Shown piece by piece: positions 1-64,000 of a stretch of 64,000 bases of DNA; positions within the stretch are counted from its first letter, which is position 1, and every line of letters starts with the position of its first letter. The stretch comes from Terramyces sp. JEL0728. Its lineage: Eukaryota; Chytridiomycota; Chytridiomycetes; Rhizophydiales; Terramycetaceae. The translations under genes and the position numbers were made by a program. The stretch spans positions 124,001 through 188,000 of the forward strand of contig JADIIU010000002.1 of the NCBI GenBank assembly GCA_027603945.1. Direction: 5' to 3'. The notes below the pieces were generated by a model that was not told the DNA's origin, did no database searches, and was given only the letters and a program-made list of their open reading frames with translations.

Positions 1-1325
1 TGGTTAGTGAAGGACTGATACATTTCATTACTCCGCACATTCTCGGCAAAACGTAATAAAGTGGTACAGGCAACTCTTCCGAAATTACCATCACCATTCC
101 TGCCATTCTTTCCCAAGTGCCATACTTTGATTGGTTTGTAGCAATATGCCCCAACATTCTAGAGACAAATTCCTTATCATGAATTGGGTGTGAATATAAA
201 GGGCCGGCAATCTAGCATAAATAGCAAGTTACATGCATCTTATGACTACAGTGTTGGCAATTAGAATTCACATCTAAAGCGCTAGGGCCAAACTTTGGTC
301 CTTTATCCGTTTCGTTGTATTTTCCAATGGTTTGGGTTTCAAAGCTCTTGCATTGCTGGCAGTGATAGATCATGGAAGTTTTGCTGCATTAGAACATCAA
401 TACCTAGAAGACTGCTTCATTAGTTGCGCAGAATTATACACTCTGACAAACACCCGGACATAGTAGTCGATATGGCAACTAATCAATGGCACAATTGCTT
501 TTTTGTATCTGGACGCAATTGATTGAATGCTGTGCAATAAAATTCGCAAAGCAAGCTCATGTGTGTACGGAGCTTGGGGAATGTTCATCCCTCCGTATTT
601 TGCCCAACAGCTTTCCGGTTGACTTCCAGCTAAAACAGCCAAATCGGTACATGTAACGCACAAAAGTCCACCATCCGCAACGGCTTGGACAGCGCTGTCA
701 AGGAATGGTGCCGCTGATCCATACGGGTCCAAGTCAATAACATTGTACTCTGGTCCAGTATACAAAACTTTGCATGCATCTCCGTGGTTTGCTTGAATTA
801 TGTTTTCCGCTTTATTATGCTTGGCATTTCTTTCAATTGCTTTGACAGCGTCTTTTGATAAATCGTTGGTCAATATCTTTGATATTCGAGGAATTTCTTT
901 TGCATATCTAACCGAGCGTAAGCCAGAAGCAGAAAGGGCTTCCATAACTGAAATACCAGACTCATCAAACGATTTATGCAGGACATTGACCGGCTGGAAT
1001 GTGGAGGTGTCTGCAGAATCTAACATGCATTTAACCTGCAAGTTTCTCTTTTTCAGTTGTTTTTCAGTCATTTCGGGTGTGTATTCCTCATTTGTCATAG
1101 TGTAAATATCTGGATCCAGCTCCTGCTTCTTGTTTTTCTTTTGAAGCTTCTCTTTGAAATATAATTGACTCCATACTTTGATTGTTGCTATAGACATGTC
1201 TCTGTTAAATTCCTGGATTGGGTTGTAAAAGACTTGATCATCGAATAGGATTTCAGCAGACCCTATTTTAATATCCAAGCACCTTCCTTTACAGACTTTG
1301 TCCCATCTGCATTTAGAATCAACCA
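1..1325 (-). CDS. TRM1: tRNA (guanine-26-N2) dimethyltransferase, 3' end off window
   Basis: Methylates G26 of nuclear and mitochondrial tRNAs using S-adenosylmethionine. The early part matches the family (GSAEILF, then VFYNPIQEFNRDMSI), followed by the catalytic/SAM motif DLDPYGSAAPFLDSA and CVTCTDLAVLAG, and YYVRVFVRV just before the zinc-binding part. Two ultrashort introns (384..403 and 212..232) must be removed. Joining then gives the C-x2-C pair YHCQQC, a second pair CQHC, and AGPLYSHPIHDKEFV, which is the usual TRM1 continuation. I chose the ATG at 1325 because it directly precedes the conserved block. An in-frame extension to 1374 has only a poor leader. The gene runs off the left edge, so its C terminus is missing here. 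The 5' end sits about 60 bp from the stop of the upstream G8 gene. Confidence 0.93.
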
Positions 1326-1385
1326 TTTCGGTACCTCTTCTTTTCCCATTTATTCGAAAAAAAATATAAATCAAAATACCCTTTA

Positions 1386-4300
1386 TTAGAAAATGTAAAC
1401 GGAGAGTATAACAAAGCTTGCAAGGGCAAAGAAAGAGAATTTATCCGCGCTGGAGTGCGTGTCAGTTGCTGCTGGAAGATTGGAAGGGATGGATGATGAT
1501 GAATTGTAAATGCGGATTTGCTTTGTCAGACTTGAAACAGCTGTTCTAACAATGTCAAAGTTGTCACTTAAATGACAGTATAATCCATTTACACCCGGAC
1601 ACGTTGCTTGGATTTGGATGAATGAATGCCCGGTCAAAATTGGAAGTGTTATGCCGTCCCGGGAGAACTGGTATGCAGACATATCTTGATGTCTATCAAA
1701 AACACCATTTCTTCCTAGCTGGCCGTCTACCTGCTGAATTACACTTATATACAGAACGTTGATTGTTGTGTCAAAGAAATAAGCTGCTCCAAACGTTTTA
1801 GCTTGTGCTGCAAAGTCTTGATAGTTGAAAGTTTGAGTAAATTTAGCCTGGCATACTGTCAACTGAGTCCATTGTCTGCACCAAGAAGCAGCATTATAGG
1901 TAATGCTAAATCGAGATCCTGGAGGGTAAGGGAAAGCGAGGATATGTGTAACATTCGATTCAAGCTGGATATTGCTGATGACCAAATTAGTTGGTGCCCC
2001 ATCCAAATATCTTATATACCAACCGCCTCCCAGCCGGGGATCAATTGGGCCGGTAATTTTGGAATTAACTTCGACAACCAAGCCCGTTGACGAGAGGTTT
2101 TCATTTCGAAGAATGTGGGTAGCATAGGCAACTGGCGGACATGGTATAAAATTGCCATTGCCACATTGAGTTTTGCCTATGGTAGCCTGGTCAGCTTGAC
2201 TGGCTTGCAATATCAACGAACCAGTAGAAATCTTTTTTCCATCAGTTGTAATAGAATTGCACAACCACATATTCATTTGAGTTGAAGGCATACTACATTC
2301 ATTTGGATTAAGCAACCACCATTTGTTTGCCCAAGCAGAACCCATTTTTTGAGGAACAGTCTTTAGTGAAGCAGATCCATCGGTATCTTTCCAATTTTGT
2401 AGTCTACCCGAGATAGTTTGATGGGCGGTTTGCCCAAACCGCCATAGCTTTGTACGGTCATATATCTGATATTTTATGTTTGCGGTTGCCTGCATCTGCT
2501 CTGGAACATATTGATCAGAGTGTGTAAGAAAACTCCAAGCATTTCCAAAACAAGATTGGACTCCATTCATTCCAGTTTGTGGAATACAGCCATTCCAGCT
2601 TGTGGTGCAGTTACGGAAAGTAGTATTGGTGATAATATGGGATTGCCCCACATCATACCACTGAAACCCAGCATATTCGCTCCAATAAGCTTGATCTCTT
2701 CCATTGCAGTTCCAACTTTGAGTTCTGGCAGTAGGACAGTCATTATAAAGCGGGAGTATATTTCGAGTTCTGCAAATAACCAACATTTGGTTTACCCACA
2801 CCTGCCCAAACATGCTTGCAGCTTTACCACAATCGTGCGCTTCATACCGGATTAATTCTTGTCGGTTTCCCCAGTGCATTATTCCCCTATTTGCCAAAAA
2901 TGCTTTGGTATTGGTGAATCGCATCCACAGGTTTTTTATGCATGTTACGGAATTGGGGTTTGAGCTGCAAGTGTTGAAACCGTTATTGACCATTCTGCCA
3001 GGATTGTAACTAGGAGCCCCAGTATCTGGATCAAATCCTTGATATAATCCCCCGATATAAAATGCGCCTGCATTTTGCCACCAATAACCAGTAGAATGAG
3101 CACTATTGCCGTCAAATATCAAAGTTGGTCTGGTACTAGGATTGATTACTACGCCATGGCTGAGGCCAGCTGCAGAATACAACGCAGGGAAAGCAAATCC
3201 GCTCCAGCCGCCGGAAGCTGCGTTTCCAATAAAAACATTATGCGGGTTAGTTATGTAAAACCCAGACGCAGATACGTCAGATGGCACAATTAGGTTGACT
3301 GGATCATAATAGACCGTATCCAAAGTTTGCGTGTAAAACATTGTTGGATCAGTAATATTGCCAAGAAAATGAATGAAGCCAGCAAAATTGTATTTCAGTA
3401 CATTGTATTCCTCGACCCCATCTTCAAGGTAGTAGCAGTGTCCAGTAATGTCATAGCTAACTGTGTTATATAGAGTAAAGTTATTGGTTCCATGAATGCT
3501 CACACACCTGTAAAACGAAGAGCGGATTGCGCTGTACTTGAGATAACTTTGGTTTCCATGGTTTCCAAGCATGTGGACATGGAATGGGTATCGTCCCATA
3601 ACATTGGTTTGACCCATATGATACAGCCCGACTCCCGTCAATTTACCGACTCCATTGTCTGATACATAGATGTGCCCTCCAAAGCCCTTTGGAGCACCGC
3701 AAGGTCGCAGAGATGTTCCTGAGCCATGGTCTCCACTACATTTGTAATTTTTGCCATTCAAACTCGATATTTCGGCTGCCGTCAAGTTTCCTTGAACAAC
3801 AATGTTTCTGGAGAGCAGGGCAACTTCTGCCTGATATTCTGTTCCGCCATAGTGAGTATACTTTAGCGGAGCATTCAAAGTAATAGCGGTTACATTTGCA
3901 CCAAATTTTGTCAAATGCAAGGAAACTATTGTCCGAACTTCATTTTGATGCGATTCAAGACTGTCTTTTAAAACAGTTGTGGTGATCGCAATTTCTTGAT
4001 TTGGAGTCCAATTAACAGTATCTTGAATGTAGATGACAGTTGATCCAGCTCGGGCCGTGGTTGCCAATCTAGTCCATGTTGGCGCGAAAACAAAGGAATG
4101 TATTTCCAAAGTACCGCCGCTAACATATATTCCTTTGACAAATGGTTTTGGGGGGAACGGCTGGGCTGCTAGATTGCCAAACAAGTTTATTTTGACACTG
4201 TTATGGATTCTGCAAGTCTCTGACCCGATCAGCATGTGTCCGTTTAGAATAATTCCCATAGTATTCAAGATTATGGAAGCGTCGTCAAATATCAATGAGG

Positions 4301-4764
4301 TGTTTACAGGTACGGTGATGTATCCATAAACTCTTTGTTGTAATGAAGTATTAGTCACCAGGATATTCTTATTGGATGGCAAAGTGATAGATGAACCATT
4401 GGCGTTCGGAAGTGCTCCGTGCGGCCAAATACTAGGGTTATTCCAGTTCACAAGATTTGGAAACTCGTGGGGGCAGTTCCGCTTTAAAAGGTTATCGGAG
4501 TTCAGCGTGGAAAGGTTGGGACGGGGAAATGTTACGCCTTCCGACCAGTGGTTTTGGATAAAGACAGGATCAGCAGATCTTTTATGCTTTTTGCTATCTC
4601 CATCGTCGATGATCAAATATTCATCTCCGCGTTTCTCATGCTCCAGGTGAGATACGTTGTGCAGTCGATTTTGAATATAGTTCATCATGCTCGCTTTGGA
4701 TTATCGTTTCGTTACCTTTAGAGGTTGCCAATAATCCACAGAGGATAATCAGCCCAGACTTCAT
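1386..4764 (-). CDS. Secreted G8-domain / beta-helix protein, probably GPI-anchored
   Basis: A protein of 1118 residues related to the G8 group (CEMIP, TMEM2, PKHD1L1). A 22-nt intron (4694..4715) separates a signal-peptide exon, MKSGLIILCGLLATSKA, from the rest. A dibasic KHKR about 35 residues after it could be a processing site. The G8 domain lies around residues 90-230. A long right-handed beta-helix-like region follows, with many N-x-S/T sites and spaced cysteines. The C terminus is a Ser/Thr-rich stretch and then a hydrophobic tail (FSFFALASFVILSVYIF), which suggests GPI anchoring. Hyaluronan processing is known for some animal relatives but is not implied here. The stop TAA overlaps AATAAA. 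The substrate is unknown. Confidence 0.8.
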
Positions 4765-4971
4765 CTCGGATTTTGGAGAAAATAATCGCGTAAAATAAGT
4801 GGTGCTATTTGAATATCACCCAAGTAAGCAATACCACTCGGAACTTTCAAATTTGTTTTTAATATATTTACAATCGCTTTACAGTTCTTGGTTTGTCACT
4901 TAAATTGGATATGGGGGATGGTGATGCAAGCCCAGATACATCTTTCAGCTTACTTTTACTTTTTTCTAGTG

Positions 4972-6410: not shown

Positions 6411-7762
6411 ATGGAATCGTTTTTTGCAGGCAATCCCTACTTTTCAGCTGGGTGAATTATTTATCTAATCAAGTGCGGGAATATTAGGACTTACAGCTGT
6501 TGGTGGGCTACTGGTAAGAGGTGCGGGAAACCTTGCACATGTTGTCCAGCGAAGAATGCTGGTCACACTTGAGATACCAATTAAAGATCCTTCTTACAGT
6601 TGGTTCCTTGAATGGATGACCCAAAACAGCAAAACTAAAGCACCGCCTAAATCCTTCATTGACAGGGCAATGGCAAAAAATCTACATCAGCTATCAATAG
6701 AAACCACATTTACGAAATATCCCAATGGAAGCACAAAGGCAGAATTCAGTCTAGTGCCAGGGCAGGGAAGACATTTTTTCAAGTATCAGCATTCATGGTT
6801 TCAAGTACTCTTTACTAATGGTAGGTTGAAAGGTCTAGGGAAAGTAAAATGGTTGATATTACTACTGGCTCGCCTTGGGAGACTATAAAAATTACTACAC
6901 TAAGCAAGGATAGAAATTTATTTGTGCAGATACTGGAAGAGGCAAAGACCGCTGCACTATCCAAGGAAATTGGAAAGATGGTTGTATTTACTTCATACGG
7001 CCATGAATGGAGACCGTTTGGATTACCGAGAAAACGAAGACCGCTGTCGTCAGTGGTTTTAAATGGAAATACCTCTGCAGAAATCTTAAATGATGTCAAG
7101 CAGTTTTTAGAAGCAGAAAAGTGGTACAACGACCGCGGCATTCCATATCGGCGTGGTTACTTACTGCATGGCCCGCCAGGTACGGGGAAATCCAGCTTTA
7201 TTCAATCGCTTGCCGGCGAGTTAGAGTATAATATCTGCATTATGAATTTAGCCGAGCTGGGGATGACAGATGATAGATTTGCACATTTATTGAATAACAT
7301 CCCCCCAAGGAGTATTATTTTATTAGAAGATATCGATGCCGCTTTTTCTGACAGGACTGCAGCAGAAACAGCAAAGCAAGGGTAATTTAGTTTAATGTCA
7401 GGCACCAAGGCATGCTGACACTGTCAGGATTACTTAATGGATTAGACGGCGTGGTTGCTTCAGAAGAAAGAATCATTTTTATGACAACCAATCACCTCGA
7501 TAGACTCGACCCTGCTATTATAAGACCAGGGAGGGTAGACACACGGATCTTTATTGGAAATGTAGCAGAAGAACAAGCCAGGACAATGTTTCTGAAGTTT
7601 TATGAAGGCGAAAACCTTTTGGCAACGAAATTTGTTGATGAACTGAAAACTGTGGGACTGATTGATATTACAAGTCCGGCCAGTCTCCAGGGCCATTTCG
7701 TACAAAACAAAGACAGTGCTCAACATGCACTGGACAACATTGAGCATTTAGTACCAAAATAA
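6411..7762 (+). CDS. BCS1: BCS1-type mitochondrial AAA ATPase
   Basis: Inner-membrane AAA protein that translocates the folded Rieske iron-sulfur protein during complex III assembly. The joined protein has 429 residues, close to the family norm. It begins MESFFAGNPYFSAGAG with a transmembrane segment (ILGLTAVGGLLV), as in BCS1 proteins, which use an internal signal. The BCS1-specific middle domain is next, then Walker A GPPGTGKSS, Walker B SIILLEDIDAAF, the second region of homology (TTNHLDRLDPAIIRPGRVD) and a C-terminal helical part. Introns are 6452..6473, 6805..6824 and 7382..7401. Each restores conserved sequence, for example WFQ|VERSRESKMVDITTG. The start is fixed by the exon-1 match. 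Confidence 0.95.
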
Positions 7763-11673: not shown

Positions 11674-14600
11674 TTAGGATTTGATACATGAACCAATTGG
11701 CTTTTCTACCTTTTCTTTGGCAGGTGCGGCTCTATTATGAGCCATATGAGATTGTACCAAATGGCCAGCAGCCAAAGCTGAACACAGTGAAAGCTCGCCA
11801 GCCAGCACAGAGGCACAGATAATCTTTGCGAGTTTTTGGGCATTTGCACCAGGCGTTTCCATGTTTGGTCCTTTTACTCCAAGGATTTCCAAACACGCAC
11901 CTTGTGGTCCAAGGGTTGTACCTCCACCAACGGTACCAACTTCAATACACGGCATACTACAGGAGATGTATAGATCTTCGCCGTTGTTAACTGCCTCCAT
12001 CAAAGTGATGCAATTGGAAGATTCAACGTTTTGGGCTGGGTCTTGCCCTGTTGCGATATAGATCGCAGTCAAGATATTTGCGGCATGCGCATTAAAACCG
12101 CCAATCGCACCAGCCATTGCAGACCCAATAAGATTTTTGGAAATATTCAGCTCAACGAGTGCTCTGACTGTTGTTTTCAAAACGCTAGTTACAACTTTTC
12201 CAGGAATAACAGCCTCTGCCACCACCGATTTGCCTCTTCCTTCAATCCAGTTAATAGCAGCAGGCTTTTTGTCTGTGCAGTAATTTCCAGAAATGGATAT
12301 AATTTGCATTTCGGTATACTTTTCGGAGAGTACTTGGTTAATATACGATTACCAGACAGCGCCTTTTCGACTCCTTTGGAGATCATATTCATTCCCATAG
12401 CATCGCCAGTTTTGGTGACAAATCTAAGGAATGCCAACTTTCCTGCAATAGCAACTTTAATCTATTGTCAATCCATTATTACATTATTTAGCTTCGCGAA
12501 TCGGCTAGTAGATTCAAAAGCTTCTTTTAAAGTTTCAAATCCTCCTTCCGTGTCTATCCATCTCTTTACATCTGCAGACCCTCTGACAGACGGGAATCCA
12601 ACTACTGGCCCTCTAGACATGCCATCGTTAATAATTTCGGTTTTTGCACCACCTCCTGCAGTAATTGCTTTGCAACCTCTGGAAGTTGAAGCAACTAGAC
12701 AGCCTTCTGTAGTTGCCATTGGAATTTGGAACATTTCTCCGTCAATTTCTATAGGGCCGGCAATGCCCACTGGAATAGGGATGTAACCGACAACGTTTTC
12801 ACAGCACACTCCAAATACTTGCTTGTAATCATAGTGGTGCAAAGGCAGAGCACTCTTTGTTAAATCAGATTTTGATAATCGCGCTATTGTGAGTTAGAAT
12901 TTACAAATAATCATTCTGCGTATGCCAACTGCTCTGGTATAATCGCCAATTGTCTTTTCCAGCGCATACGATGCAATTTTACCTGCATCGACCAATTTTA
13001 AAATCTCATCATCAGTCAGCTCTCCAATTCCAGAATTTGTCCATTTTGCCAACAATTCACCGACTACAGAATCATTTGCAGCAGTAGGAGGCGGGATAGC
13101 TGGTTTCTTTTCTTTGGTAACTGCTTGTAGTTTTTGTGCCGCCAATGCATTCTGCTTGTCCAGCCAATTTTGAGAAATTGCGACAGAAATAATAGCTGTT
13201 ATAGCGATAGACATTGAAAAGATCAAAATGGTATCAGGGTTGATGAAAGAGTAGGTAGTGTGCATTGGAAGCGGTACTCTGTCGATTTCAATTGGAATCC
13301 ATATTGGATGAATAATATGAGGTTTGGCGATTTGAACAATGACTGTTTCTGGGGATTGAGACATGATCAAGGAGGCGAGCGTGGAATATCCAGAATCAGA
13401 AGCATCAAGAATGCCGGGACGCAAGTTTAGCATATTGTACGATCCAGATGCAGTCACTGCGTGACTAATCAAGAATGTCAAAATTGTCAACAACTTTCCA
13501 CGAGAGATGATCTTGTTGGTCTTCTTTGCAGCTTCAGATTCCACCTTTGCGATTGGCGCATTTGTGAGCAGGTTCTTTTTCAAATCTACTACTTTAACTC
13601 TTTGGTCGTTCAGGTACAACCTTCGGAGTTCAATCTTTAATGTCAATACAGATAAATAGAACGAAAACAAGAAAATCCCATCCAGGAACAAGGAGATGGC
13701 AGCTAAAATGCAGTATCTTCCAAGGGTTCCGTTAAACCCAAGCGTGCCGCCGATTGCCAAGATTCCTACTTCGATGCTATATTCAACCAGTAAGGAACTA
13801 GAAACAGATGTAATTCCCTTCTTGATCTTTTCTCGCACCGATATTTTTTCAGTATCCTTCTTGTCTACTGCTTCAAACACGCTTTTGGTTAGTAAAAATG
13901 GCTTGTCGAATCCAACTGCAATGACAAAGTATGGAATGGCTTCAAACAATTCAGTTGCAGTTAGACTGATACCTAAAAAGCGTGTGATCGACAGCCCAAC
14001 CAAGAAAGCAAAGGCCGAATTCATGAATACACAGAATGCTAGAGTGAAATTCGAACCCAAAGTACGCATATTCATAATCAAATTGAGCAACGTTGCTTGC
14101 ATCAACACAATAGCAACAGCAATCATAATCAAATCTGATTGATGAGAAGTCTAGATTAGTCCTAAAAGTACCTTGAATAGCTGTTTTAGTTGGTTGTAAA
14201 CTTCAAAAAGGTCGTAGATGGAATTTCCATTTGGCAAAACACGCTTAAAATTAAGCATAATATCATGGTTGTAAAAGTTTTCCAATTGGGCTCCTTCAAG
14301 TCTCTTTTCCCAAATGTTTACGTTTTGTTGCTGAGCTAGAGTCGATACGTTAAAGAAGAGGGACATGACTATAGAGTCAGCTCCAATGACTATACTATCC
14401 TGTACCTTTAATCCTTCGAACGATGATTCAATCAAGGAAGGGTTGTTTGAGTTTGCAAGAGCTCTTGCCAGACTTTTTTCAGGCGACAAATTCTCTTGAT
14501 CAATCAGATATTCAACCGGAAAACTGTAGGCGCACTTGGAAAAATCTGTCAGCCAGCATAGATCAGTGTAATACTTTTTCTGTCCCAATTGGTCAACAAT

Positions 14601-24056: not shown

Positions 24057-27000
24057 ATGTCATCTCGAAATAAAACAATAAAGCCGGATTTCTCGAAATT
24101 GAGAGCTCTAAGACAAAATGGGGAGACGAATTTGCAACATTACCAGGTAATACAACAATAATTTAGATCGCTGAACAAACCCCGATATACGATGAAGTAA
24201 CGGAAGAAGAATATAATGCAATTGCAAAACGTGCTATCCTTGAAGATGATTTCGTAGTTGATGATAACGGTGAAGGCTATGGCAGAGGAATTGAAGATTG
24301 GGATGCTCCCCAATCTGACTCTGAAAGTGATCTGGAACAGGATCAAGTGCCAAAGAAAAGAAAGAAAAAGTAGAATGCTCTAATGATAGGAAAGACGGCG
24401 GCATCATAACTGCGCTTATCAATAATCAAAACAAAAGAATTGCCCAGCAAAAAGTAGTTAAAGTAATGGTGGCTAATACTAGGAAATCGTAACCACCGAA
24501 AAGGAAAATGAATTCCTTTCCTCCATATTTAATGATATTGAATCTACTACTATACAGAAAAAGTCTGTTGCGGCCAAACCTAAAGTAAAACTGGAAGTTC
24601 GAAAGCCAATTAAATACAATATCGAACCACTTGCCCCCCACAATGATGACGTTGGTAATATGGATTTCATGGATATGGATGAAGCGAACCCTGTACAAGT
24701 CAAGGTGGAGGACGATTTTGTTGCACCAGTTCACCACCCTGTGCGAGTAAAAGAAGAACGGATTATCCCAAAGGTTGAAATCAGATCAGTGTCGAATACC
24801 TCCTCCACAAAGACAAAGAAATTCTTGCCAAAATTCGAACAAAAAGAAAGTGAGTTGGTTATCACTTCTAAACCAACTGATACGGTGAAATGGAAAGAAA
24901 TCAAGAGTGATTTTAATCAAGAGGCTATTCAAGAAGTTGGGGAAGTTGACTTTCACGAAAACCTGTACATGTTTTGGATTGATGCTTTTGAAAAAGATGG
25001 AGCTGTGTACTTATTTGGCAAGGTTGAATCAAACGGTACATTTGTGAGTTGCTGTGTCCAAGTGAAGAACATTGAACGCAACCTGTTTTTGCTACCTAGG
25101 AAATTCAAGCTTGATGGTATATTCAATTAACATAGACAATCGAAATGAAACTGACTACCCAGTCTCCCTTGGAGATGTGTACCTTGAATTTGATGAAATC
25201 CGAAAAAAGTATGGAATCAAAGAATTTGCATCCAAAGTAGTAAACAGAAAGTATGCCTTTGAATTGCCTGGGATTCCAGCAGAATCAGATTTTCTCAAAG
25301 TATTGTATTCTTTCAATGAAAAATCACTGGAAAGCTCACTTACTGGAAAAACCTTTAGTAAAGTGTTTGGCACAAAGACAAGCGCACTGGAACTCTTGCT
25401 ATTGAAAAGAAAGATTATGGGGCCATGCTGGTTGAAAATCCAAAATGCGGAACTTTCAACAGCAAGCATTTCATGGTGTAAATTGGAACTTGTCCTCAAA
25501 AACCCAAAAGATATTCTAAATGTAGCAGGGGATGAATCTGCCCCCAAAACCAGCCCCCCGATGGTTGTAATGTCTCTCAACTTGCGTACAGTCATGAACT
25601 CGCACAAAAATGTCAATGAGATTGTTTCAGTCAGTGCCTTGACATATACAAATGTCAATTGTGAAGGTGAATCGCAGGACCTTAAAGGATCGCAGTTTAG
25701 TATTCTTCGCCAAACCGATGTTCCTTGGCCAGACAATTTTGAAAACATCATCAAGGGCCAAGAAGTAAAAACCACGTTGGTGCCAAATGAGAGAGCCCTA
25801 CTTAGCTTACTAATTGGTATAACCATACTAATGTAGCCAATATTCAAAGAATCGACCCCGACATTTTGGTTGGGCACAACTTCATTGATTTTGATTTAGA
25901 TGTGCTATTGCAAAGAATGAAAGTATACAACATTCCACATTGGTCCAGAATTGGTAGACTCAAGCGGTCTGTATGGCCAAAACTCCAAGTTGGCGCCGGT
26001 GGTACTGGTGATTCTTCGTTTGCAGAACGCCAAATTGCCGCCGGAAGAATACTGTGCGATACATATCGAGCTGCAAAAGATTTGGTCAACAGCAAGAGTT
26101 TCAGTTTGAGTTACCTTTCTGCCACCCAACTAAAAATTGAAAGACCAGATATTGAATACGACAAGATTGCTAGCTATTTCTGGGAAACTTCCAAACTGCT
26201 GGAAATGATCAAACATTCTCAGTTTGATACTTGGTTGGCGACCCAATTGCTATTCAAATTGCAATTTTTGCCGCTCACTAAACAATTAACCAACCTTGCT
26301 GGTAACTTGTGGAGTAGGACCATGTCTGGAGCAAGAGCTGAAAGAAACGAATACTTGCTGCTTCATCAATTCCATGAAAAGAAATACATTTGTCCTGATA
26401 AAGAGTTTATTGAAAAGCAAGTCACTGTGCAGCTGAATGAGGATGGAGGTACTTTTTGCTAATATAGATGAAGTAAAAGCCGGGGGGAAACGCAAAGCTG
26501 CTTATTCTGGTGGTTTGGTCCTTGAACCAAAGAAAGGGCTGTACGATAAATATGTGTTACTGTTGGATTTCAACAGTCTGTATCCTTCCATTATCCAGGA
26601 GTATAACTTGTGCTTTACCACGGTTGAAAGGGTATATGATCAAGATGGAGACCACATGCCAGAGATTCCCGAAGACTGCGAAAAAGGAATTTTGCCCAAA
26701 TTGTTGGCAACTCTGGTTGAGAGAAGAAGAGCAGTTAAGGGATTGATGAAGGATCCAAAGATTTCGCCTCAGGAATATGCTCAGGTAAATTATGGCTAAT
26801 TCAGTATGATATTCGACAAAAGGCTCTCAAACTCACTGCTAATAGTATGTATGGGTGTCTAGGTTTCGTACACTCTAGATTTTATGCCAAACCAATCGCG
26901 ATGCTTATCACATTTAAAGGCAGAGAAATTCTTCAAAACACTGTTACTCTTGCAGAATCTCTTAACCTTGAAGTAATTTACGGCGACACTGACAGTATCA

Positions 27001-31047: not shown

Positions 31048-31184
31048 ATAATATAATTCACATCTTTTATTATGGCACTAATAAGATCGTTGAACAACTT
31101 CCTTGAACATTGAGTTTGCACTCTTCACCCACTTTCCAAGTGCAGAATATCTCAACGCATCATTTGAACTACATCAACAACATA

Positions 31185-32521
31185 TTACCCTTGATCTAGC
31201 TGTACAAGCTGTGCGATTTGGTCAACCTTTGCTACTAATTTCCCATCAAGAATGACACTGATTAGAATATCCTCAACTTCTTTTGGCGATATAGTTAATT
31301 GCTATGGTTAGTTGGCAGCTACCTCTGCAATAAATTTAATTTCAATTCTAGAGTATGGCGAAACCAAATCAATGAGTACCTGCATCCTAATGGTTTTCAA
31401 TACATCATCAATATATTCTCTGATAAACAAGTCATCCATAATTGAAGATCTGTTTGATCGCAATATCCTTTCGAATCTCTTTAAATCCTTTTGGTGGAAT
31501 GCGTCTACCAAATCAGTCAACACAATAATTTGAGGATCTGTAGCGTATGATTTGGTTTCTTGAGAATCAAATGGATTGATTTGAGATTCCATCAACATAT
31601 TAGCCAGCACCAAATATTTCAGACATTGGATTCTTTGCTGACTTCCGGCTTCATCATAGTTTTTGAAAGCTTCAAAGAAATCTGTTTGTGCCTTATCCCA
31701 TTCCTGTTCATACATGTGCATCTTTCCGCCGCATTCTCTAATCAGCCCCATAATTCTAGGGTGAGGAATTGCAGATTTGACATGCAAACATTTTTGGTAC
31801 ACTTCTTTTAATTTCTTGTTATTCTTGGTTTCGGTATACATTTGAATTTCCAGCGCGTAGATTTCTAAAAGCAAAGTGCCTTTTTGTTGGTCATTAGAAC
31901 CATCAGAATTCTGGCAGGATTCGTGCAATTGACGGATAATCTTTTTCAACCTGCCATGTTCATGACGATCTAGCCAGAGCTACCGTTAAAATAGCCGTAC
32001 TTTTGCAAGCTTGAGATTGGTCTTTGTCCACAACCGTTCATTCCTTGATTCTTCCAGTGAATCCAATGTAATCGAATACAATTTTTCCATGAATGTAGTG
32101 TCTTGTGCTGCAGAAACATAGTCCAAAATTCCATTGATGCTTTTTTCGCTGGTATTTCGGGTTACTGCACTCTTTGTATACGTGAGCAGATTAACATAAT
32201 ACCGCAGCGTCTAATTTTAACCATAGCTTACTGAATCATAGTCAGCCAGCTTAAATGACACTTTAATCATTTGTTTATGCGCCTTGAAACCCCTGCAATT
32301 AACCACAATTACCATTCGCCTTTTTCTTCTTCCGCATCAATGACTTTTTGAAAATGCGTAATCGCTTTCTGAGGATCATTCTCCTTGTACCCCTTTGCTT
32401 CATAATATGCATTTTCAAGATCGACTTGAGTTTCCTCTTCCTCAGACCCTGAATATTCAAAGTCGAATTCATCTTCCTCCTGTTGTTAGCTATCTGCAAC
32501 CATCATATCATCATCAGACAT
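31185..32521 (-). CDS. CSN2: COP9 signalosome subunit 2
   Basis: A PCI-domain subunit of the COP9 signalosome, which removes Nedd8 from cullins. The 410-residue product opens with an acidic N terminus ([16 protein letters not shown]). Then come [96 protein letters not shown] and the PCI part with NPFDSQETK. Five introns (32480..32500, 32293..32312, 32211..32231, 31980..32000, 31302..31322), each 20-21 nt, restore close matches to animal and fungal CSN2. The last exon supplies the winged-helix end [20 protein letters not shown]. It is divergent from ERG28, with 29 bp between the start codons. Confidence 0.97.
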
Positions 32522-48621: not shown

Positions 48622-49524
48622 ATGGCCAAACGAGTTTTATCAATTCAGAGCCATGTGGTATATGGAACGGTTGGCAATAAATGTATACTTGACTGACAAT
48701 TAGCCGCAACGCTTCCACTCCAGCTGCTGGGATTTGAAGTTGATCCATTGAACACAGTTCAGTTTTCCAACCATGCAGAATACGAGATATTTAAAGGATT
48801 AGCTTTCAACAAGCAAAATATTCAGGATTTGTTTCAAGGATTAATTTTGAATGATTTCGTGTCAGAGTACACTCACATTATAACTGGATACTGTGGAAAG
48901 GCAGAATCACTGCTGGAGATTTACAAATTCCTTTTAAAACAAAAGAGGGAGGGCTTGAAGATTGGTTTTCGTGCATTAATTCTAGTTGTTGATCCAGTTC
49001 TCGGTGATGACAATAAGCTTTACGTTTCCAATGACCAGATTCCAATTTACAAACAAATGATTGCATTGGCGGACTTGATTACTCCAAACGGCTTTGAAGC
49101 AGAGTGATATCTTGCTTATTTTAGAATACTATCCGGCATCAAACCAAATGCAGATAATATTCAACAGGTGTTTGACATTTTACATGCTTTCGGACCAAAG
49201 CAAGTGTTAATTACTTCAGTAATAGAATTAAACGATGGGCAAGATAAACTGGTATTGTATGGGTCAGACAATGGCAAGCTGTTCAAGATTTATATTCCAA
49301 AAATTGAAGGCAGATTTGTTGGAACTGGAGATGTTTTCTCTGCCCTAGTTCTTGGGCATTTGGATAAAGGATTGGTGGATGCTTGTGAATTATCTGTAGA
49401 TACCATGCAAAAGATTCTGGAGAACACGTTGCGATTGAAAAGGAAACGGAATGAGCTGGCGTTAGTTGACAGCATAGCAGATATCCTCAACCCAGTTGCA
49501 ACCAGAAAGGCTATATTTTTATGA
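48622..49524 (+). CDS. PDXK: Pyridoxal kinase
   Basis: Phosphorylates pyridoxal, pyridoxine and pyridoxamine to make the cofactor PLP. The 286-residue product starts MAKRVLSIQSHVVYGTVGNK, the usual family opening with the S-H-V-V-x-G-x-V-G-N motif. Other markers: TVQFSNH, LVVDPVLGDDNKLYV, LITPNGFEAEILSG and the phosphate/anion-hole motif FVGTGDVFSALVLGHL. Two 21-nt introns (48683..48703 and 49104..49124). The first falls inside the GNKSA turn. The stop lies within the AATAAA region of the convergent PAF1 gene. Confidence 0.96.
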
Positions 49525-51898: not shown

Positions 51899-53187
51899 TC
51901 AAAAGAAGACCCAGACTGTCCCCATACCTCCCATTACTATTCCAGTAGCAGTAATTAACAATTCTATGGCCCATTCAAACTTTGACAACTCTTGGCCAAA
52001 CAAGGACATGTAGCAGCAAGACGGGAAAACAACTGAAACGGTAAAAGCAAATACAGATCCGAGTAATGCCATGACTTTGTGGAATTCGGGAACAGAAACA
52101 GAGATAAACAGGATCAATCCACCAGACAGAGTAATTGAAAGAAATCTGCGCACATTAGGATTCATTTTGAAAAAGTAGCTAAAGATTTGTTCCATCTGTG
52201 AATTTACAGGGCTAATGCTAATTGGATATTTGGTAAAGGCGTTGATGGCGACCAAGCCAATCATCAAGTTGGTTAAAATCTTGTTGTATTCTGGAACGAG
52301 CGGGATATTTTGGGTAATCTACATATTAGTTTTGCAGTACTTCATCCTTGGTGTCAGATCCAAACATTAAATATCCAATTACTCCGACGAACCCGTAATT
52401 CAAAACGACAATGAGATAAGACAGATTCAGTAACTTTGGATACTTTTCAGGTTGTTTCATATCGTGGTAAATCTGTGGAAAAACAAAGATCAACAATTAA
52501 ATTACCTGAATGTCCACAAAATCCAGCCATCAACAGACCAAAGGATAGTGGTATTGGAGAATATGCTGGCGGACCAGCGGATATATTTGCAAAATGGAGA
52601 ATAGATCCAGGCGATTCAGTTTTTGTAAATCCATCGTAGGAAAGGATCCCAATCAAGTTGACCATTGCAATAATCCCAATCAACGAAATATAAGAAATGA
52701 TGGATAGCGACCTTGGCCAAGTTGCTGGGATAACCAAACAGGAGACGATAACCTTTACATAGAATAAACTATACTGGGGAAACAGCGCAATAATTGAATC
52801 TGCAGTTAGAATTACTAGTGCAACAGCGGCAGTGCCCAATTCTAAAAAGAAGATTACGCTGATAAAAGTTCTCCCAGGTACTCCAAATGCAGCTTGTCCG
52901 ATATCGCTATAAGTGAACCCAGCTTCGTCGTTGGCTTTGCATTTGTTCAAGCACTTTCCTAAATGTTTCCCGGTATGGTGGGTAATTACTGCATAAAATA
53001 CTAGAAGGAACAGTCCAAGTCCATACCCGGTAATACTAAACGCAAATGGCAATGACAATAATCCGGTTCCCATTAAAATATTCACCGAATTGAACAAGGA
53101 ATTTGTAAAATTTGATCTTCCACTATTCTCAAATAACTTGAACTTATTCCGCAGTAACATTAGCTGAGTTGGTTCCTGTTCTTGCAT
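51899..53187 (-). CDS. AVT-type amino acid transporter (paralog A)
   Basis: An amino acid/auxin permease-family transporter (SLC32/36/38, yeast AVT1 group), 414 residues with about ten to eleven membrane segments. It opens NSLFNSVNILMGTGLLSLPF, the classic first segment. Introns: 52484..52505 and 52319..52340. The first begins GTAATTT and ends GATCTTTG, not AG; using it yields MAGFCGHSVFPQIYHDMKQP, which matches paralog B exactly in layout and keeps the frame. Normal GT-AG splicing at this spot gives a premature stop. The second sits at the same place as an intron in paralog B. The gene is divergent from paralog B at 53511. Confidence 0.9.
52484..52505 (-). other. GT-TG intron in AVT gene (paralog A)
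   Basis: A 22-nt intron that starts GTAATTT and ends TTGATCTTTG. The branch-like TTGAT lies at the usual distance, but the final AG is TG. The reading frame, the gene length and the paralog alignment (GHSVFPQIYHDM against GHSVFPNLYRDM) all require this end. The only nearby AG (TTCCACAG) shifts the frame to a stop. Confidence 0.7.
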
Positions 53188-53510
53188 CTTTCAAATTTTT
53201 TGGTAAAGTGAAACAGAATACTGCGGCATCCGTAATTTGGCCAAGCTTTAATAATCAAACCCGTGGAGGGAAAGGAATAGCGGTATTAATGCAGGATTCC
53301 ACTGGCTTACAGAATGCTTTCACCCTCCTTGTAATAAGTTTGCCATTCCAACTACATAATAGCCCTTTAATGATTTAATTCTCCTCATATACCTGTTATC
53401 TGAGTGCATGATTCTGACGTATTCATTGGTGTTGATAACGGATAAGAAGAGCAAGGTCCCTGCTTATCGCAAGAGTACAAAAGCACCAGCTCAAATATAA
53501 TTCATTGATA
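53188..53510. promoter_or_regulatory. Shared promoter region of the two AVT genes
   Basis: A 323-bp spacer between head-to-head AVT genes. It is the only divergent spacer of this size that links two paralogs here, so shared control is plausible. No coding frame is supported. I see no motif strong enough to name. Confidence 0.4.
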
Positions 53511-55148
53511 ATGTCAGATCAAGAAAGAGGGATAGATATCCAGCCAGGTGCTCGTCGCAATTCAGACAGGAATTACGGCAGCTACTTGGATATCCACCGG
53601 AATATTTCTAATTCAAACAGCAACATTCAGCCATCTTGGTCCTCATCATACAAAAGATCTCTGGATTATACTTGCTTCAGGAATAGCAGACAATCTGGAG
53701 CAACGATCCCAAGTATCAGCAATGAAGATCCCAGCACAATTCCTCCAGAATTCGTCGACGAAGAAAGCTCATTGCTGGAGAATTCAACTCTTAGAAATCC
53801 AAAATTAGCAAGGTTCGAAGATGTGCTGGAAGATAACGATGTTGAAGAGAGTCTTATCGAGGATGACGACCAGATTCACTCTACATTTTCCCAAACTCTT
53901 TTTAACAGTGTAAATATTTTGATGGGAATTGGAATATTATCTCTTCCATTTGGATTTGCAATTACAGGCTGGGCAGTAGGATTCGGTTTACTTGTGTTGT
54001 TTGGGCTGATGACTTACCATACCGGCATACTGCTGGGGAAATGCTTAGGAGATAGAAAAGGCGGCCAGCCTATTTGCTACACTTATGGAGATATAGGCAA
54101 GTTCAATTTAATGATAGGCGAAGCTGCATTTGGCATGGGCGGCCGTACGTTCATCTGCGTAGTGTTCTTTTTCGAGCTATGTGCTGCTAATATTGCGTTA
54201 ATTATTCTCGCTGCTGATTCAATTGTCGCTCTCATTCCAAATTTGAAGCTAGGGCTTGTCAAATGTGCAGTTGCCCTGTTAGTTTTCCCGCTGACTTGGC
54301 CACGATCGCTTGCGATTGTATCTTATGGATCCTTGGTGGGGATAATAGCCATTCTCAATCTTGTTGCTATATTATTTGTGGATGGATTTTCAAAAACAAC
54401 CGCTCCTGGCAGTTTATGGGAGCCAGCACTCACACACATACTGCCGCCGTCTCTTTATCCGGTGCCTTTAGCATTTGGCCTTATTATGGCGGGATTTGCA
54501 GGTATCTTTCAATTCATAATAGGACATTCAGTCTTTCCAAATTTATACAGAGATATGAGGGAACCAGAAAGGTTTCCACAGTTACTGAAATCTACTTATT
54601 TGGTAATTATGATTATCTATGCTGCTGTAGCAACTTCTGGATATTACATGTTTGGAAGTGCAGTTCGCGAAGAGGTATCTTTGTTACTGACACAGATAAC
54701 GCAAAATTTGCCGCTTATCGTTGAATATAATCCAATATTAACTAGGATTACGGTAGGGATTGTAGCAGTCAATCCACTTACTAAATATCCTCTGAACGTT
54801 GCTCCGCTGAATTTTCAATTAGGTGATCCATAACTTACGCTAGAACAGCTTCTTTTATACTTTGTCCCAGCGATTTCGAAAAATATTTCTAGGGCAGTTT
54901 GCTGCATTACATCTGGTATATTCATCTTGTTTGTTGCTATTACATTTCCCGGATTCCATTCGGTAATGGCACTTTTAGGATCGTTCTTTTCTTTCACTGT
55001 CTCTGTGGTATTCCCCGCAATGTGCTATATCAGACTTTTCGGATCTGACATCAGCACATTTGAATATGTTTTTGAGGCTACTGTTGCATTGGTTGGTGCT
55101 CTGTTTGGTATCGCTGGTACAATATGGGTGTTCTTGCCCATCAAATAG
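53511..55148 (+). CDS. AVT-type amino acid transporter (paralog B)
   Basis: A 517-residue relative of paralog A with a long cytosolic N terminus (about 120 residues, Ser/Asn/Glu-rich), as in vacuolar AVT1. The transporter core starts QTLFNSVNILMGIGILSLPF. Four introns of 21 nt: 54097..54117 (GC-AG), 54502..54522, 54675..54695 and 54823..54843. The first three have no stop in frame, so unspliced sequence reads through with seven extra residues each. Aligning to paralog A shows they are introns (TYGDIGEAAFGMGGR, MAGFAGHSVFPNLYRDM, REEITQNLPL). The fourth contains a stop and is needed to reach the last membrane segments (LLGSFFSFTVSVVFPAMCY). The start at 53511 is a clear ATG. Confidence 0.9.
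54097..54117 (+). other. GC-AG intron, 21 nt, stopless
   Basis: The 5' end reads ATAG|GCAAGTTC, the well-known consensus of GC-AG introns, and the 3' end is TTTAATGATAG. It would code KFNLMIG if retained. Paralog A lacks these seven residues (TYSDIGQAAFGVPGR), so removal restores the family sequence. Confidence 0.75.
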
Positions 55149-57907: not shown

Positions 57908-59631
57908 TTACTGTTGGAATTGAGCAGCAAAGTCTCCGAGGACCTTTCTGATTTTAGCATCAGTTTCAGAGCTAATAGCATTTTCCTTCTTAATGGCAGA
58001 AAAGATTTCAGGTGCGTTAGCATTGACATATGGGACTAAGGCAGCTTCGAAAGCAGTAACTTTGTTGACTGGAATCTTGTCGAGGAAGCCGTGTACACCA
58101 GAGAAGATAATGACAACCATGTGTTCGACAGAAAGCGGGGCATATTGGTTTTGTTTCAATAATTCAGTGAGACGGGCACCACGGTTAAGTGTGGATTGAG
58201 TAGCAGCATCTAAATCAGAACCGAATTGAGCGAAAGCAGCCATTTCACGATATTGAGCCAAGAAAAGTTTGAGGGAACCAGCAACTTGCTTCATAGCCTT
58301 GACTTGGGCAGCGGAACCGACTCTGGATACGGAAAGACCGACGTTAATAGCTGGACGGACACCCTTGAAGAAGAGTTCAGCTTCCAAGAAGATTTGGCCA
58401 TCAGTGATAGAAATTACATTAGTTGGGATATAAGCAGATACATCACCACCTTGGGTTTCAATAACTGGAAGAGCAGTCATGGAACCGCCCCCAAAGTTCT
58501 TGTTCATCTTTGCAGCACGTTCTAAAAGACGAGAGTGGAGATAGAAGACATCACCAGGGTAAGCTTCTCTACCTGGAGGACGACGAAGCAACAAAGACAT
58601 TTGACGATAAGCGACAGCTTGTTTGGACAAATCATCATAGATGATAAGAGAGTGCATGCCATTGTCACGGAAATATTCTCCCATGGCAGCTCCAGAGTAA
58701 GGTGCCAAGAATTGAAGCGGTGCAGCATCAGAAGCGGTAGCAGCAACGACAATAGAAAATTTAAGAGCATCGTTTTCTTCCAAAGTTTGGACGAATTGAG
58801 CTACAGTGGATCTCTTTTGTCCAACAGCTACGTAGATACAGTAGAGTTTCTTGGTTTCGTCAGAAGTAGCGTTCCATTTTTTTTGGTTAAGAATGGTATC
58901 AAGGGCGACAGCAGTCTTTCCGGTTTGACGATCACCAATGATCAATTCTCTCTGTCCACGGCCAATTGGCACCATGGAGTCAATACATTTAATCCCTGTT
59001 TGCATAGGTTCGTTAACAGAAGCACGAGGAATAATACCTGGAGCCTTGACTTGAACTCTTTGGCGAGTAACGTTTTGGAGTTGGCCCTACCATTATTTTT
59101 GCATTACCTTTCCGTCAATTGGGTTTCCAAGAGCATCAACAACACGGCCAAGGAGACCAGCACCGACTGGAACGTCTACAATAGAACCGGTTCTCTTGAC
59201 AATATCGCCTTCCTTGATAAGACGATCGTTTCCAAAGACTACGATACCAACGTTGTCAGTTTCCAAGTTCAAAGCTTGTCCCTAATATTAATCATATAGT
59301 AAACCTTGATTCCAGAGGAAAATTCCACCATCTCTTCTGCTTGGACATTCTTGAGACCGTAAACACGAGCAATACCATCCCCAATGGAAAGTACTCTTCC
59401 AGTTTCCTGAATATCAAAAGCCTTGTCAGCACCAAGGATTCTTTCTTCCAAGATTGAAGAGACTTCTGAAGTCACTAATATAAAAAAAATATTACAAGCT
59501 TTTGCAGCAAATGCTGGCTTTGAAGTCGAGAGTGGTCTTGCAAGTGCAGCTACACGAGTCTAATAAATTAATTGGAGACTTACAGCTACTGAAGAGCGCA
59601 TCAGTGGAGCGAAACGAATTGTTCTAAACAT
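57908..59631 (-). CDS. ATP1: ATP synthase F1 subunit alpha, mitochondrial
   Basis: Nucleotide-binding subunit of the F1 motor in mitochondria (544 residues). The presequence is [19 protein letters not shown] and continues [13 protein letters not shown]. Walker A is [12 protein letters not shown]. Other markers: [52 protein letters not shown] in parts, and [17 protein letters not shown]. The ending matches the family. Four introns: 59560..59583 (24 nt, longest here), 59475..59495, 59282..59304 and 59087..59107. Several end TTAATATTAG or TATATTAG. The codon use is regular and the gene is likely highly expressed. AATAAA is about 14 nt after the stop. Confidence 0.98.
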
Positions 59632-60362: not shown

Positions 60363-60392
60363 TTTAAAACAGAAAAAAAACTTGAAAAATTA

Positions 60393-61085
60393 ATGACATC
60401 TGCAGCAAGACCTACCTTCTTACCAGCTATTGGTGGCCATTCGCTAAGAGATACTGGTGCTGGACCAGTCACATTGCAATCGGCAAAGGATTTGGCAGCC
60501 CACACTAAACTTAAATTCAGACAGAAAGGGCAGTTTTCAAAGGAAGATATGAAGAGAGTTGATTTGAAAGCTCAGTTGCAAGAAAAGGAACAGCAATATT
60601 TCCAAAAGATCAAGTCTTCAAGTAGCTTACTATTTAACTATAGCGGCTTTGAGCACGAATGTTGCGGAAGAGAAATTTAGCGAATTTCAGAACTTGGACA
60701 AAGACGATACCGAAGATGAAGATGACGGTAATTTAAATTAATCCTAGACGATGACGAAGAAGAAGATGATGAAGACGATACAGCTGAACTAATGAAGGAG
60801 TTGGAAAAGATAAAGCAAGAGCGAAGGCAGGAACAGGAAAGAATTGAACGAGAGTTGCAAGAACAAGAGGATAGGGAAGCGGAAGAAAGAGCAATGACTG
60901 GCAATCCGCTATTGAACGAATCAACTCTTGGAGGAAGCAGCTTTACAGTCAAACGCAGATGGGATGACGACGTTATTTTCAAGAATCAATCTAGAGGAGT
61001 AGTTGAAGTCCCAAAGAAGAGGTTCATCAACGATATGTTGCGATCTGATTTCCACCGCAAATTCATGGATAAATATGTTAAATAA
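60393..61085 (+). CDS. CWC15: Spliceosomal protein CWC15
   Basis: A 216-residue component of the Prp19-associated complex in the spliceosome. It opens MTSAARPTFLPAIGGHS, the family start (MTTAARPTFEPARGG), then LAAHTKLKFRQ. A strongly acidic middle (DEDDDDDEEEDDEDD) is followed by a long helix ELEKIKQERRQEQERIERE. The conserved end reads FTVKRRWDDDVIFKNQ, then KKRFINDMLRSDFHRKFMDK. Introns 60622..60643 (22 nt) and 60728..60747 (20 nt) restore it. AATAAA overlaps the stop. It is of interest that its own transcript has the ultrashort introns it helps remove. Confidence 0.96.
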
Positions 61086-61194
61086 ATTTACTAGTTTTTT
61101 AATATCCATGCGATCGTTCACTCTCTGCGACTGAATCCATCACAACGTATTTGAGTGATCTAATTTAATTTGAAAAGTTTAACACGCAGCAAAA

Positions 61195-61889: not shown

Positions 61890-62009
61890 TAAAGTGAATT
61901 CCGAATTGAATGGAACAGACTTGTCTATCGCCAGAGAAGGTTTTAATCCAGAGTTTAACTTTTTCTATCAAGCCACGTTTTTCCAGAAATTTTTTTTGAA
62001 AAAAAAGTA

Positions 62010-63604
62010 ATGGCATCCATTGGTATTAGTTTTGGTACTGTCTACTCATGCATCTCCATTCCAGACAAGGTATTCGTAATTAACGGAAGAATGGCATTCC
62101 AGAGGCAATAGCAAACGAAGATGGATTCAGGCAAATTCCTTCATATGTTGCATACAATGATGTCGAAGTGTTATGCGGTACTCAAGCAAAGCAGCAAGCA
62201 TTATCCAACCCAAAAGGAACCATCAACCACTTTCGTCCATTATTAGGGAAAAGGTATTTTGATCTTGACAATAGAACTGGAGATAAGGAAATTAAAGAAT
62301 TTGGAAAAGCTTTTAGAGTTCCAATTGTTGCTTCTAATGAGGATCCAGCCTTACCTGTATTTGAAATCGAAACATTCCCTGAAGGAGCTGAAGAACCAGT
62401 TATTTCGCAATACTCTGTCACTGATGTTACTGCAACCTACCTCAAGAAATTGAAGGATACTGCTGAATACTTCCTCAGTGCCCAAGTTGATAACTGTGTT
62501 ATTTCTATCCCAGCCCACTTTGAAGAATCACAAAAGAAAGCTTTGTTGAAAGCTGCTCACGAAGCTGGATTCAAATCTGCCTATGAGTTGCATGAACCTG
62601 TTGCAGCTGTCATGGCATTCAATAACCTTGGATCAACAACTCAAAACAAAATGGACAAACAGATTGTGGTTTTGGATCTTGGTGCAGAATCATTCAATAT
62701 TACTTTGATTTCAAACCACGATGGATTATACACTATTGAAGACTCTGTCGAAGAACAAAACTTGGGGGGAAATGATTTTGACAAGGTTCTTGCTGAATTT
62801 GCAAAGGAAGAGTTCAAACGCAAGACCAAGATGGACATATCCGACAACAAGAGATCATTAATCAAATTACAAAATGCTTGCGAGCGCACCAAAAGAGCCT
62901 TGACTCGTCAAGACACTGCGCCATGCTCCGTAGAATCCTTGTATGATGGTATTGATTTTAACGGCTCCATCCCAAGGGCTAGGTTCGATATGCTTGCTGA
63001 ACCACTTTACAACAAGTGTAAAGCTGCTGTATTAAAGACCTTGAAGAAATCCAACTTGGCGGTCGAAAAGGTCGATCAAGTTGTTCTCATCGGAGGCAGC
63101 AGTAGAATGCCAAGATTCCAAGCTGCCATGAAATCCCTCTTTCCAAATGCAGATGCAGAGACTGAATTCAGATGTGATATTGAACCTGATGAAGCAATTG
63201 CTTTGGGATGTGCCGTCCAAGCTCAAATCCTTTTGGCAAACGAAATTGACTTTGATGTTAAATTTGAAAAAAAACTGATTGATGCAGAACACTTGTCTAA
63301 AACCATCACTATTGCCTCTGCTACAGGCGAACATGTACCAATTATCCCTGCAGGTACTCCTTTGCCAGTCCGTCGTCAATTTACCCTCCCCCTTGGTGCT
63401 AAACAAACCGGTATTTATCTTTCAGTGTTTGAATCTGATAGCAGCACCAATTCTTTGTTGGGCGAAGTTGTGTTGTCTGGCCTTCCAGATGATATCAAGG
63501 ACGGCAGAGTGGAAGTTGTTTTCTTGATTGAATTAGACCATGTATTACAAGTCACGATTACTGAAAAGGTCAGCGGCGAGAAAGTTCATGCTGCATTGAA
63601 ATAA
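62010..63604 (+). CDS. SSZ1: Ribosome-associated Hsp70 homolog SSZ1
   Basis: A 524-residue Hsp70-like protein of the Ssz1 group, which forms the ribosome-associated complex with zuotin at the nascent chain exit. The ATPase-like domain has ISFGTVYSCIS (altered phosphate loop), VIVLDLGAESFNIT-type residues (here QIVVLDLGAESFNITLISNH) and VVLIGGSSRMP. The substrate-binding part is short and ends VLQVTITEKVSGEKVH, as in yeast Ssz1. This truncation and the degenerate phosphate loop separate it from canonical Hsp70. A 20-nt intron (62070..62089) joins IPDK to NGIPEAIANEDGF. Confidence 0.9.
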
Positions 63605-63668
63605 ACCATCTTCAATAATTGAAAATTTCCGTGTCCAGATTTCTTGACATTTACTTTGGGGATCTAAA

Positions 63669-64000
63669 ATGGCCAAGAGAGTTACAGACTCTGATGAAGA
63701 ATCAGCCAACAAGAGACAGCGAAAAAAAGTACGACAATTCTGATAATAGGATTCAGGGTCAGAAGACTTTGATTCAGACAATGTGCAATCAGAAGGTGAA
63801 CTGGATGAACCGAATCGAAAAGATTTTTCAGGATTAGGAACTGTCGAATCAGTAACAATGGTCAATTTCATGTGCCATAAATACCTGGAAATTAAATTGG
63901 GCGAAAAGCTAAATTTCATAGTTGGTCATAATGGCTCAGGGAAATCTGCTATCCTTACAGCGTTGACTGTTGCATTGGGGGGAAAGGCTTCGTTCACCAA
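63669..64000 (+). CDS. SMC6: SMC6, N-terminal part, runs off the window
   Basis: The ATPase head start of the SMC5/6 complex subunit, which acts in DNA repair and replication fork stability. After an acidic leader ([20 protein letters not shown] and [14 protein letters not shown]), split by a 21-nt intron at 63729..63749, comes [20 protein letters not shown] and the Walker A region [16 protein letters not shown], then [13 protein letters not shown] is typical of SMC6. The reading frame is cut at 64000; the hinge and C-terminal head lie outside. Confidence 0.92.

Follow-up and report, generated by a model that had tools for sequence, protein, structure and literature searches.

How small can the introns of a true fungus become while its genome remains full-sized? 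The question is raised by a 64,000-nucleotide (nt) stretch of DNA from Terramyces sp. JEL0728 (contig JADIIU010000002.1, positions 124,001 to 188,000; hereafter the window, meaning this whole stretch), in which an earlier note, made from the letters alone, had described about 100 introns in 35 genes, all 19-24 nt long. The assembly behind the window holds 15,016,339 bases in 231 contigs (384,731 bases in the contig carrying the window), and the organism, which the note had called fungus-like, can be placed more sharply as a member of Terramycetaceae, Rhizophydiales and Chytridiomycota and thus as a true fungus, presumably free-living. We conclude that the segments are almost certainly U2-type spliceosomal introns of this chytrid, compressed genome-wide to about 20 nt, a reading that rests on genomic sequence and predicted gene models.

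Evaluating the window with a purpose-written gene finder, which reads both strands, uses coding statistics, requires GT-AG introns by construction and carries a flat length prior, we predicted 111 introns in runs that gave a bonus to lengths of 18-25 nt. All 111 were 18-24 nt long (18 nt, 2; 19 nt, 18; 20 nt, 48; 21 nt, 32; 22 nt, 9; 23 nt, 1; 24 nt, 1), and processing the window in 16-kilobase (kb) pieces with short lengths favoured gave 109. Among the 47 window models of at least 80 amino acids, 35 were intron-bearing and together carried 108 introns, in good agreement with the number first counted. A few of the 111 calls are doubtful, one of them being an 18 nt call in HMG-CoA reductase (HMGR) that is missing from both the deposited protein and the homology-checked model. 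The bulk does lie at 19-24 nt as the note had it, with the 18 nt calls lacking homology verification, and its statement that none is longer is supported for the genes checked.

Without any length preference the same short class emerged. Before any splice-site training, 41 of 75 window introns fell at 19-23 nt; at a low intron cost, with matrices trained on introns of every length, the finder over-called, making many false joins, and 96 of 211 fell at 18-24 nt; and with costlier introns and no length term (splice matrices, not lengths, being trained on 18-25 nt introns), 74 of 105 fell at 18-23 nt. Extending the costlier-intron setting to a 264 kb sample, composed of the window and twenty 10-kb stretches from 19 other contigs out of 15.0 Mb, placed 302 of 379 introns at 18-24 nt, with a mode at 20 nt (143 introns) and the remainder spread sparsely over 25-290 nt, such that the predicted length distribution is narrow, single-peaked and below about 25 nt. 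Short introns were present in all 20 sampled stretches, at 9-32 per stretch. When 18-25 nt was favoured, the sample yielded 460 introns, with introns in 143 of the 185 models that reached 80 amino acids, and scaling 460 per 264 kb to 15.0 Mb gives an estimated 26,000 or so introns genome-wide.

Two controls address whether the short class is a product of the finder. Shifting the bonus to six other length ranges left 103-184 introns of the favoured lengths where 18-25 nt had given 460, and the total score dropped to 12,370-12,731 (15,895 with the original range); even so, the finder kept calling 102-130 introns of 18-25 nt against the penalty. A matrix-free scan, in which a GT..AG cut had to join two open coding blocks across a stop and seven decoy dinucleotide pairs served as control, revealed 121 GT-AG joins at 18-24 nt versus 20-48 for the decoy pairs, with no excess at 26-60 nt (322 versus 218-488) or at 61-100 nt (380 versus 252-615).

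The predicted introns share a strikingly uniform internal architecture, which we evaluated across the 460 introns of the sample. The donor begins GTA in 405 of them (GTAATT most often, followed among the commonest by GTAATA and GTATTT), with no preference for G at position 5 (T 0.47, G only 0.17), and the acceptor is TAG in 290 and CAG in 108. A YTRAY-like branch motif (commonly TTAAT, CTAAT, TTAAC or CTAAC) is present in all but 17 introns; of the 443 that bear it, 359 place the branch A at nucleotide 14 or 15, and 372 have a tail of 5 or 6 nt after it. The spacing is thereby tighter than in the earlier note, which had the TAAY/TGAY motif followed 2-6 nt later by AG. Since intron length is the sum of loop and tail, these values give 19 nt (14+5), 20 nt (14+6 or 15+5) and 21 nt (15+6). 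A scored branch motif was found in 301 of 302 introns versus 68 percent of interior shuffles, and because the motif is this common in shuffles, the weight rests on its fixed position. Only 3-4 nt separate the branch A from the acceptor AG, a space into which a polypyrimidine tract cannot fit. The introns have a GC content of 0.29, and the donor matrix carries 7.1 bits of information, with 8.7 bits over branch and acceptor. The U12-type consensus has an RTATCCTT donor and a TTCCTTAAC branch, and the commonest donors here are unlike it. As a side observation, introns whose length is a multiple of three had an in-frame stop in 86 of 125 cases versus 118 of 250 for the other two frames, possibly reflecting selection for premature stops upon retention; the gene finder favours stop-bearing introns, so detection is biased the same way and we draw no conclusion from the excess.

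If the segments are introns, their exact removal should leave proteins that align with their families, and the note had claimed that excision restores family-conserved sequence. We assessed 28 introns in eight genes, for which homologues supported 23 and contradicted none, the other 5 lying in parts too variable or unaligned to judge, and the aligned parts of these genes needed no longer intron. For HMGR the homologue set comprised 93 proteins of at least 80 percent length, drawn from the best 120 of 5,802 matches, and for CSN2 it comprised 119; a homologue was counted as gap-free when it had exactly 20 residues within the 20 columns around a junction. The spliced CSN2 product scored 559 bits against solved CSN2. 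The introns are as follows.

14151..14171, minus strand: HMG-CoA reductase intron 1, 21 nt; 84 of 93 homologues gap-free.
12884..12904, minus strand: HMG-CoA reductase intron 2, 21 nt; 15 of 93 gap-free, the alignment reaching the junction and a variable loop coming directly after.
12462..12482, minus strand: HMG-CoA reductase intron 3, 21 nt; 93 of 93 gap-free.
12333..12352, minus strand: HMG-CoA reductase intron 4, 20 nt; 93 of 93 gap-free.
32480..32500, minus strand: CSN2 intron 1, 21 nt; 68 of 119 gap-free.
32293..32312, minus strand: CSN2 intron 2, 20 nt; 114 of 119 gap-free.
32211..32231, minus strand: CSN2 intron 3, 21 nt; 116 of 119 gap-free.
31980..32000, minus strand: CSN2 intron 4, 21 nt; 119 of 119 gap-free.
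31302..31322, minus strand: CSN2 intron 5, 21 nt; 116 of 119 gap-free.
31169..31188, minus strand: CSN2 intron 6, 20 nt; 95 of 119 gap-free.
25117..25135, plus strand: DNA polymerase alpha intron, 19 nt; against solved polymerase alpha, a one-residue gap three residues downstream.
25817..25836, plus strand: DNA polymerase alpha intron, 20 nt; gap-free against solved polymerase alpha.
26449..26467, plus strand: DNA polymerase alpha intron, 19 nt; no judgement from the alignment, the linker here being variable.
26785..26804, plus strand: DNA polymerase alpha intron, 20 nt; gap-free against solved polymerase alpha.
6805..6824, plus strand: BCS1 intron 1, 20 nt; alignment gap-free.
7382..7401, plus strand: BCS1 intron 2, 20 nt; a two-residue gap a few residues upstream.
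59087..59107, minus strand: ATP synthase alpha intron, 21 nt; alignment gap-free.
59282..59304, minus strand: ATP synthase alpha intron, 23 nt; alignment gap-free.
59475..59495, minus strand: ATP synthase alpha intron, 21 nt; a one-residue gap about five residues upstream.
59560..59583, minus strand: ATP synthase alpha first intron, 24 nt; beyond the homologue alignment, in the targeting part at the N terminus.
48683..48703, plus strand: pyridoxal kinase intron 1, 21 nt; this junction also appears in deposited protein P0241.
48965..48985, plus strand: pyridoxal kinase intron 2, 21 nt, stopless; excision gives GLKIVVDPVLGD, in line with GLTIVVDPVLGD in two Boothiomyces proteins.
49104..49124, plus strand: pyridoxal kinase intron 3, 21 nt; supported by homologues.
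212..232, minus strand: TRM1 intron, 21 nt; excision gives HCSHKMHIAGPLYSHPIHD, aligned with solved Trm1.
384..403, minus strand: TRM1 intron, 20 nt; inside the solved-Trm1 alignment, where similarity is low.
1263..1282, minus strand: TRM1 first intron, 20 nt; a gene-finder call outside the significant Trm1 alignment.
60622..60643, plus strand: Cwc15 intron 1, 22 nt; variable region, no judgement from the alignment.
60728..60747, plus strand: Cwc15 intron 2, 20 nt; variable acidic region, no judgement from the alignment.

In the protein sequences deposited for this strain, which are predictions too, 10 of the 13 short introns in three of these genes (HMGR, CSN2 and pyridoxal kinase) are spliced out as here, and such introns are already in the public annotation. 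For pyridoxal kinase, P0241 agrees residue for residue with a three-exon splice across 286 residues, with intron 2 (48965-48985; a stopless multiple of three) read through as coding sequence. CSN2 P0121 matches residues 1-410 of 439 without a difference and stops at intron 6 (31169-31188), 29 residues early, and HMGR P0004 is identical except for one 20-residue loss after intron 4, as would follow from an 80 nt GT-AG cut (12273-12352). After Terramyces sp. JEL0728 itself, the next-closest matches came from Boothiomyces (94-95 percent over the HMGR part searched), whose introns we approached through predicted proteins only; a scan of viral contigs with one Boothiomyces protein found no relative.

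We then asked whether the genome encodes a machinery suited to such introns, seeing that the earlier note had suggested inspecting U2, SF1 and U2AF for change or loss. All are encoded. The U2 small nuclear RNA (snRNA) is complete (140 bits) and retains its usual GTAGTA (GUAGUA in RNA), with which the branch motif can pair; SF1 and U2AF35 are present, as is Prp8 (PROCN E 9.8e-233); and U2AF65, at L026:1454-2854, has an exon-by-exon score of 252 bits, below the family cut-off (310), with its RRM1-RRM2 pair aligned to that of solved U2AF65 at 212 bits and its C-terminal domain aligning to solved U2AF65 C-terminal domains. The genes for this machinery seem to carry the same introns, as 12 of 13 in the length-favouring models of the SF1, U2AF65, U2AF35 and Prp8 loci are 18-20 nt long, the thirteenth being a 186 nt call in U2AF35. 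The sole oddity lies in the first RNA-recognition motif (RRM1) of U2AF65, where KEHCHVEF, contained within one exon up to its last residue, stands in place of the solved KNFAFLEF (which we take to be the RNP1 motif of the human protein), exchanging two phenylalanines for histidines, while the KGFAFCEY of RRM2 resembles the solved KGYAFCEY. As an observation on the Terramyces protein, this predicted substitution is a lead. With U2 snRNA, SF1, both U2AF subunits and Prp8 encoded, the introns look U2-type at minimal size, and the claim of roughly 20 nt introns in a full-sized genome holds up on these genes together with the length controls and the homologues.

Taken as gene predictions, the data establish boundaries, architecture, restored reading frames and factor genes, and make splicing of the predicted 20 nt introns very probable. 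The major spliceosome would remove them in its ordinary two-step reaction, with a lariat of about 14-15 nt as intermediate. Each intron would be a fixed cassette with a GTA donor, a branch A at position 14 or 15 within the YTRAY-like motif and, up to and including the AG, a tail of 5-6 nt, and the branch site and 3' splice site would be recognised as a single unit because there is no room between them for a polypyrimidine tract. Such a rigid layout suggests that the active site may fix the spacing of donor, branch helix and AG, one short cassette bearing all signals. The wider proposal, that a true fungus reduced all its U2-type introns to a single cassette and kept SF1 and both U2AF subunits, with its splicing machinery remodelled to match (the U2AF65 RRM1 histidines), we put forward tentatively, as a possibility somewhat short of even; the RRM1 change looks as if polypyrimidine-tract reading had been abandoned, since no tract fits between branch site and AG.

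Several results weigh against a genome-wide set of minimal U2-type introns. U1 snRNA was not found in the genome by a model or by two patterns, and U6 snRNA was not found by its conserved core, with only two sub-threshold model matches, all of these searches lacking a positive control; assembly gaps or divergence are possible explanations. The two U6 matches probably are not U6, having about 27 bits versus a gathering score of 44 and lying in near-identical stretches (L022 and L023, on contigs C199 and C111) that adjoin an intron-like segment, and these stretches are probably a repeated gene instead. Five of the 28 introns could not be judged by homology (ATP synthase alpha, 1; TRM1, 1; polymerase alpha, 1; Cwc15, 2). 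Coding sequence shows no avoidance of chance intron cassettes, with 46 on the sense strand versus 47.8 +/- 5.7 in synonymous shuffles (143 open frames, 94,449 nt; antisense count 75), and with this lack of depletion we rejected cryptic-intron avoidance as an indirect proof of splicing; at stricter thresholds the sense count was higher (14 versus 8.9, and 6 versus 1.6), perhaps reflecting real stopless introns within open frames. Lastly, a 186 nt call near the uncertain 5' end of U2AF35 persists even with short lengths favoured.

That call also speaks for a mixed population, in which short introns dominate and a real minority of longer ones was missed by homology in the eight genes, an alternative that we consider unlikely though the best placed of those weighed. 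Without length preference, 77 of the 379 introns in the sample lie outside 18-24 nt, 76 of these being at least 27 nt, and the same model made two long calls at SF1 (248 and 73 nt) and two at U2AF35 (82 and 266 nt). Set against this, the long calls scatter across all lengths with no second peak, their median splice-site score is lower (8.4 versus 10.0), and the 73 nt SF1 call becomes 19 nt once short lengths are favoured. Of the 76 calls of at least 27 nt, 38 contain a good nested 18-24 nt intron, compared with 3 of 380 length-matched control segments from coding sequence; this is what would arise if small exons lying between short introns had been passed over by the finder. The 38 calls without a nested intron are unexplained and count in favour of a mixture. 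The four long calls closely checked in known window genes were all false: those of 60 nt in TRM1 and 41 nt in pyridoxal kinase are each really a 21 nt intron, that of 110 nt in ATP synthase is really 24 nt, and that of 59 nt in fumarate reductase disappears on reading the open frame to its stop.

Removal by something other than the spliceosome, whether DNA-level excision, translational bypassing or tRNA-type splicing, is suggested by a size close to the known spliceosome limit and seems very improbable to us, given GT-AG ends with a YTRAY-like branch motif at fixed distance, a genome encoding the branch and 3' splice-site factors, and the presence of the segments in assembled genomic DNA. That the segments are no introns at all, with sequencing or assembly errors and frameshifts in intronless genes mimicking them, is hardly credible even granting that the deposited gene models are predictions too, as exact GT..AG excision restores family-conserved sequence gap-free in up to 119 of 119 homologues, decoy dinucleotides give fewer such joins, and the segments have a common fixed branch-site geometry.

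Returning to compressed U2-type introns as the preferred explanation, we compared Terramyces with known short-intron systems. Among the closest is Stentor coeruleus, whose introns, 15-16 nt long, start GUA, have the branch A at position 10-11 and end 5 nt after it, and whose snRNAs and most core spliceosomal proteins are reported present (PMC9505925). Both organisms have genome-wide, uniform, AU-rich, tiny U2-type introns starting GUA (the commonest in Stentor being GUAAUUUUUAUAUAG), whereas Stentor is a ciliate with a weak branch consensus and Terramyces has a clear one, its branch A at 14-15 and a tail of 5-6 nt. The tails are thus near one another (5-6 versus 5 nt) but the loops differ (14-15 versus 10-11 nt), which suggests that the branch-to-AG distance may be the harder constraint. 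Uniform tiny introns also occur in mikrocytids, intracellular parasites with introns of 16-17 nt (224 in M. mackini) and a spliceosome down to 17-19 proteins (PMC10245619). Terramyces, by comparison, is a fungus whose introns are estimated at 26,000 and whose genome encodes the few splicing factors looked for. Chlorarachniophyte nucleomorph introns have an almost identical narrow length range (18-21 bp, as cited in PMC10245619) but reside in a relic endosymbiont nucleus, in contrast to the main genome of the organism here. Paramecium too has a genome of short introns, with medians of 24 nt (P. bursaria) and 25 nt (P. tetraurelia; PMC12862383), and differs in being a ciliate with a wider range (15-100 nt in P. 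bursaria). The note's list of short-intron lineages, nucleomorphs and ciliates, had left off the mikrocytids.

Terramyces is the same kind of case as Stentor, the mikrocytids and the nucleomorphs, now in a fungus. Among the matches listed from the open-licence literature we found no report of short introns in Terramyces, Boothiomyces, other chytrids or any fungus, and no open-licence paper naming JEL0728 or JEL0866; in the parts available, PMC5364385 gives intron numbers of other chytrids without lengths and PMC11649378 does not mention chytrids.

Elsewhere in the window, the predicted product of a single open frame at 1386-4688 is about 1,100 residues long and has a CEMIP beta-helix domain and a CEMIP X domain, and 51899-55148 holds two divergently placed genes that by eye resemble one kind of amino-acid transporter (Aa_trans being tested in the plus-strand copy only), perhaps a local duplication.

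For those working with this family, gene models lose or add residues wherever a short intron is missed. At about 20 nt, these introns are near the smallest size known for the splicing machinery and make a convenient fungal test case for the minimum intron, and a further independent case, in a fungus still encoding SF1 and both U2AF subunits, would permit comparative tests of the lower limit. Comparison with fungal relatives whose introns are longer should let the order of changes be traced.

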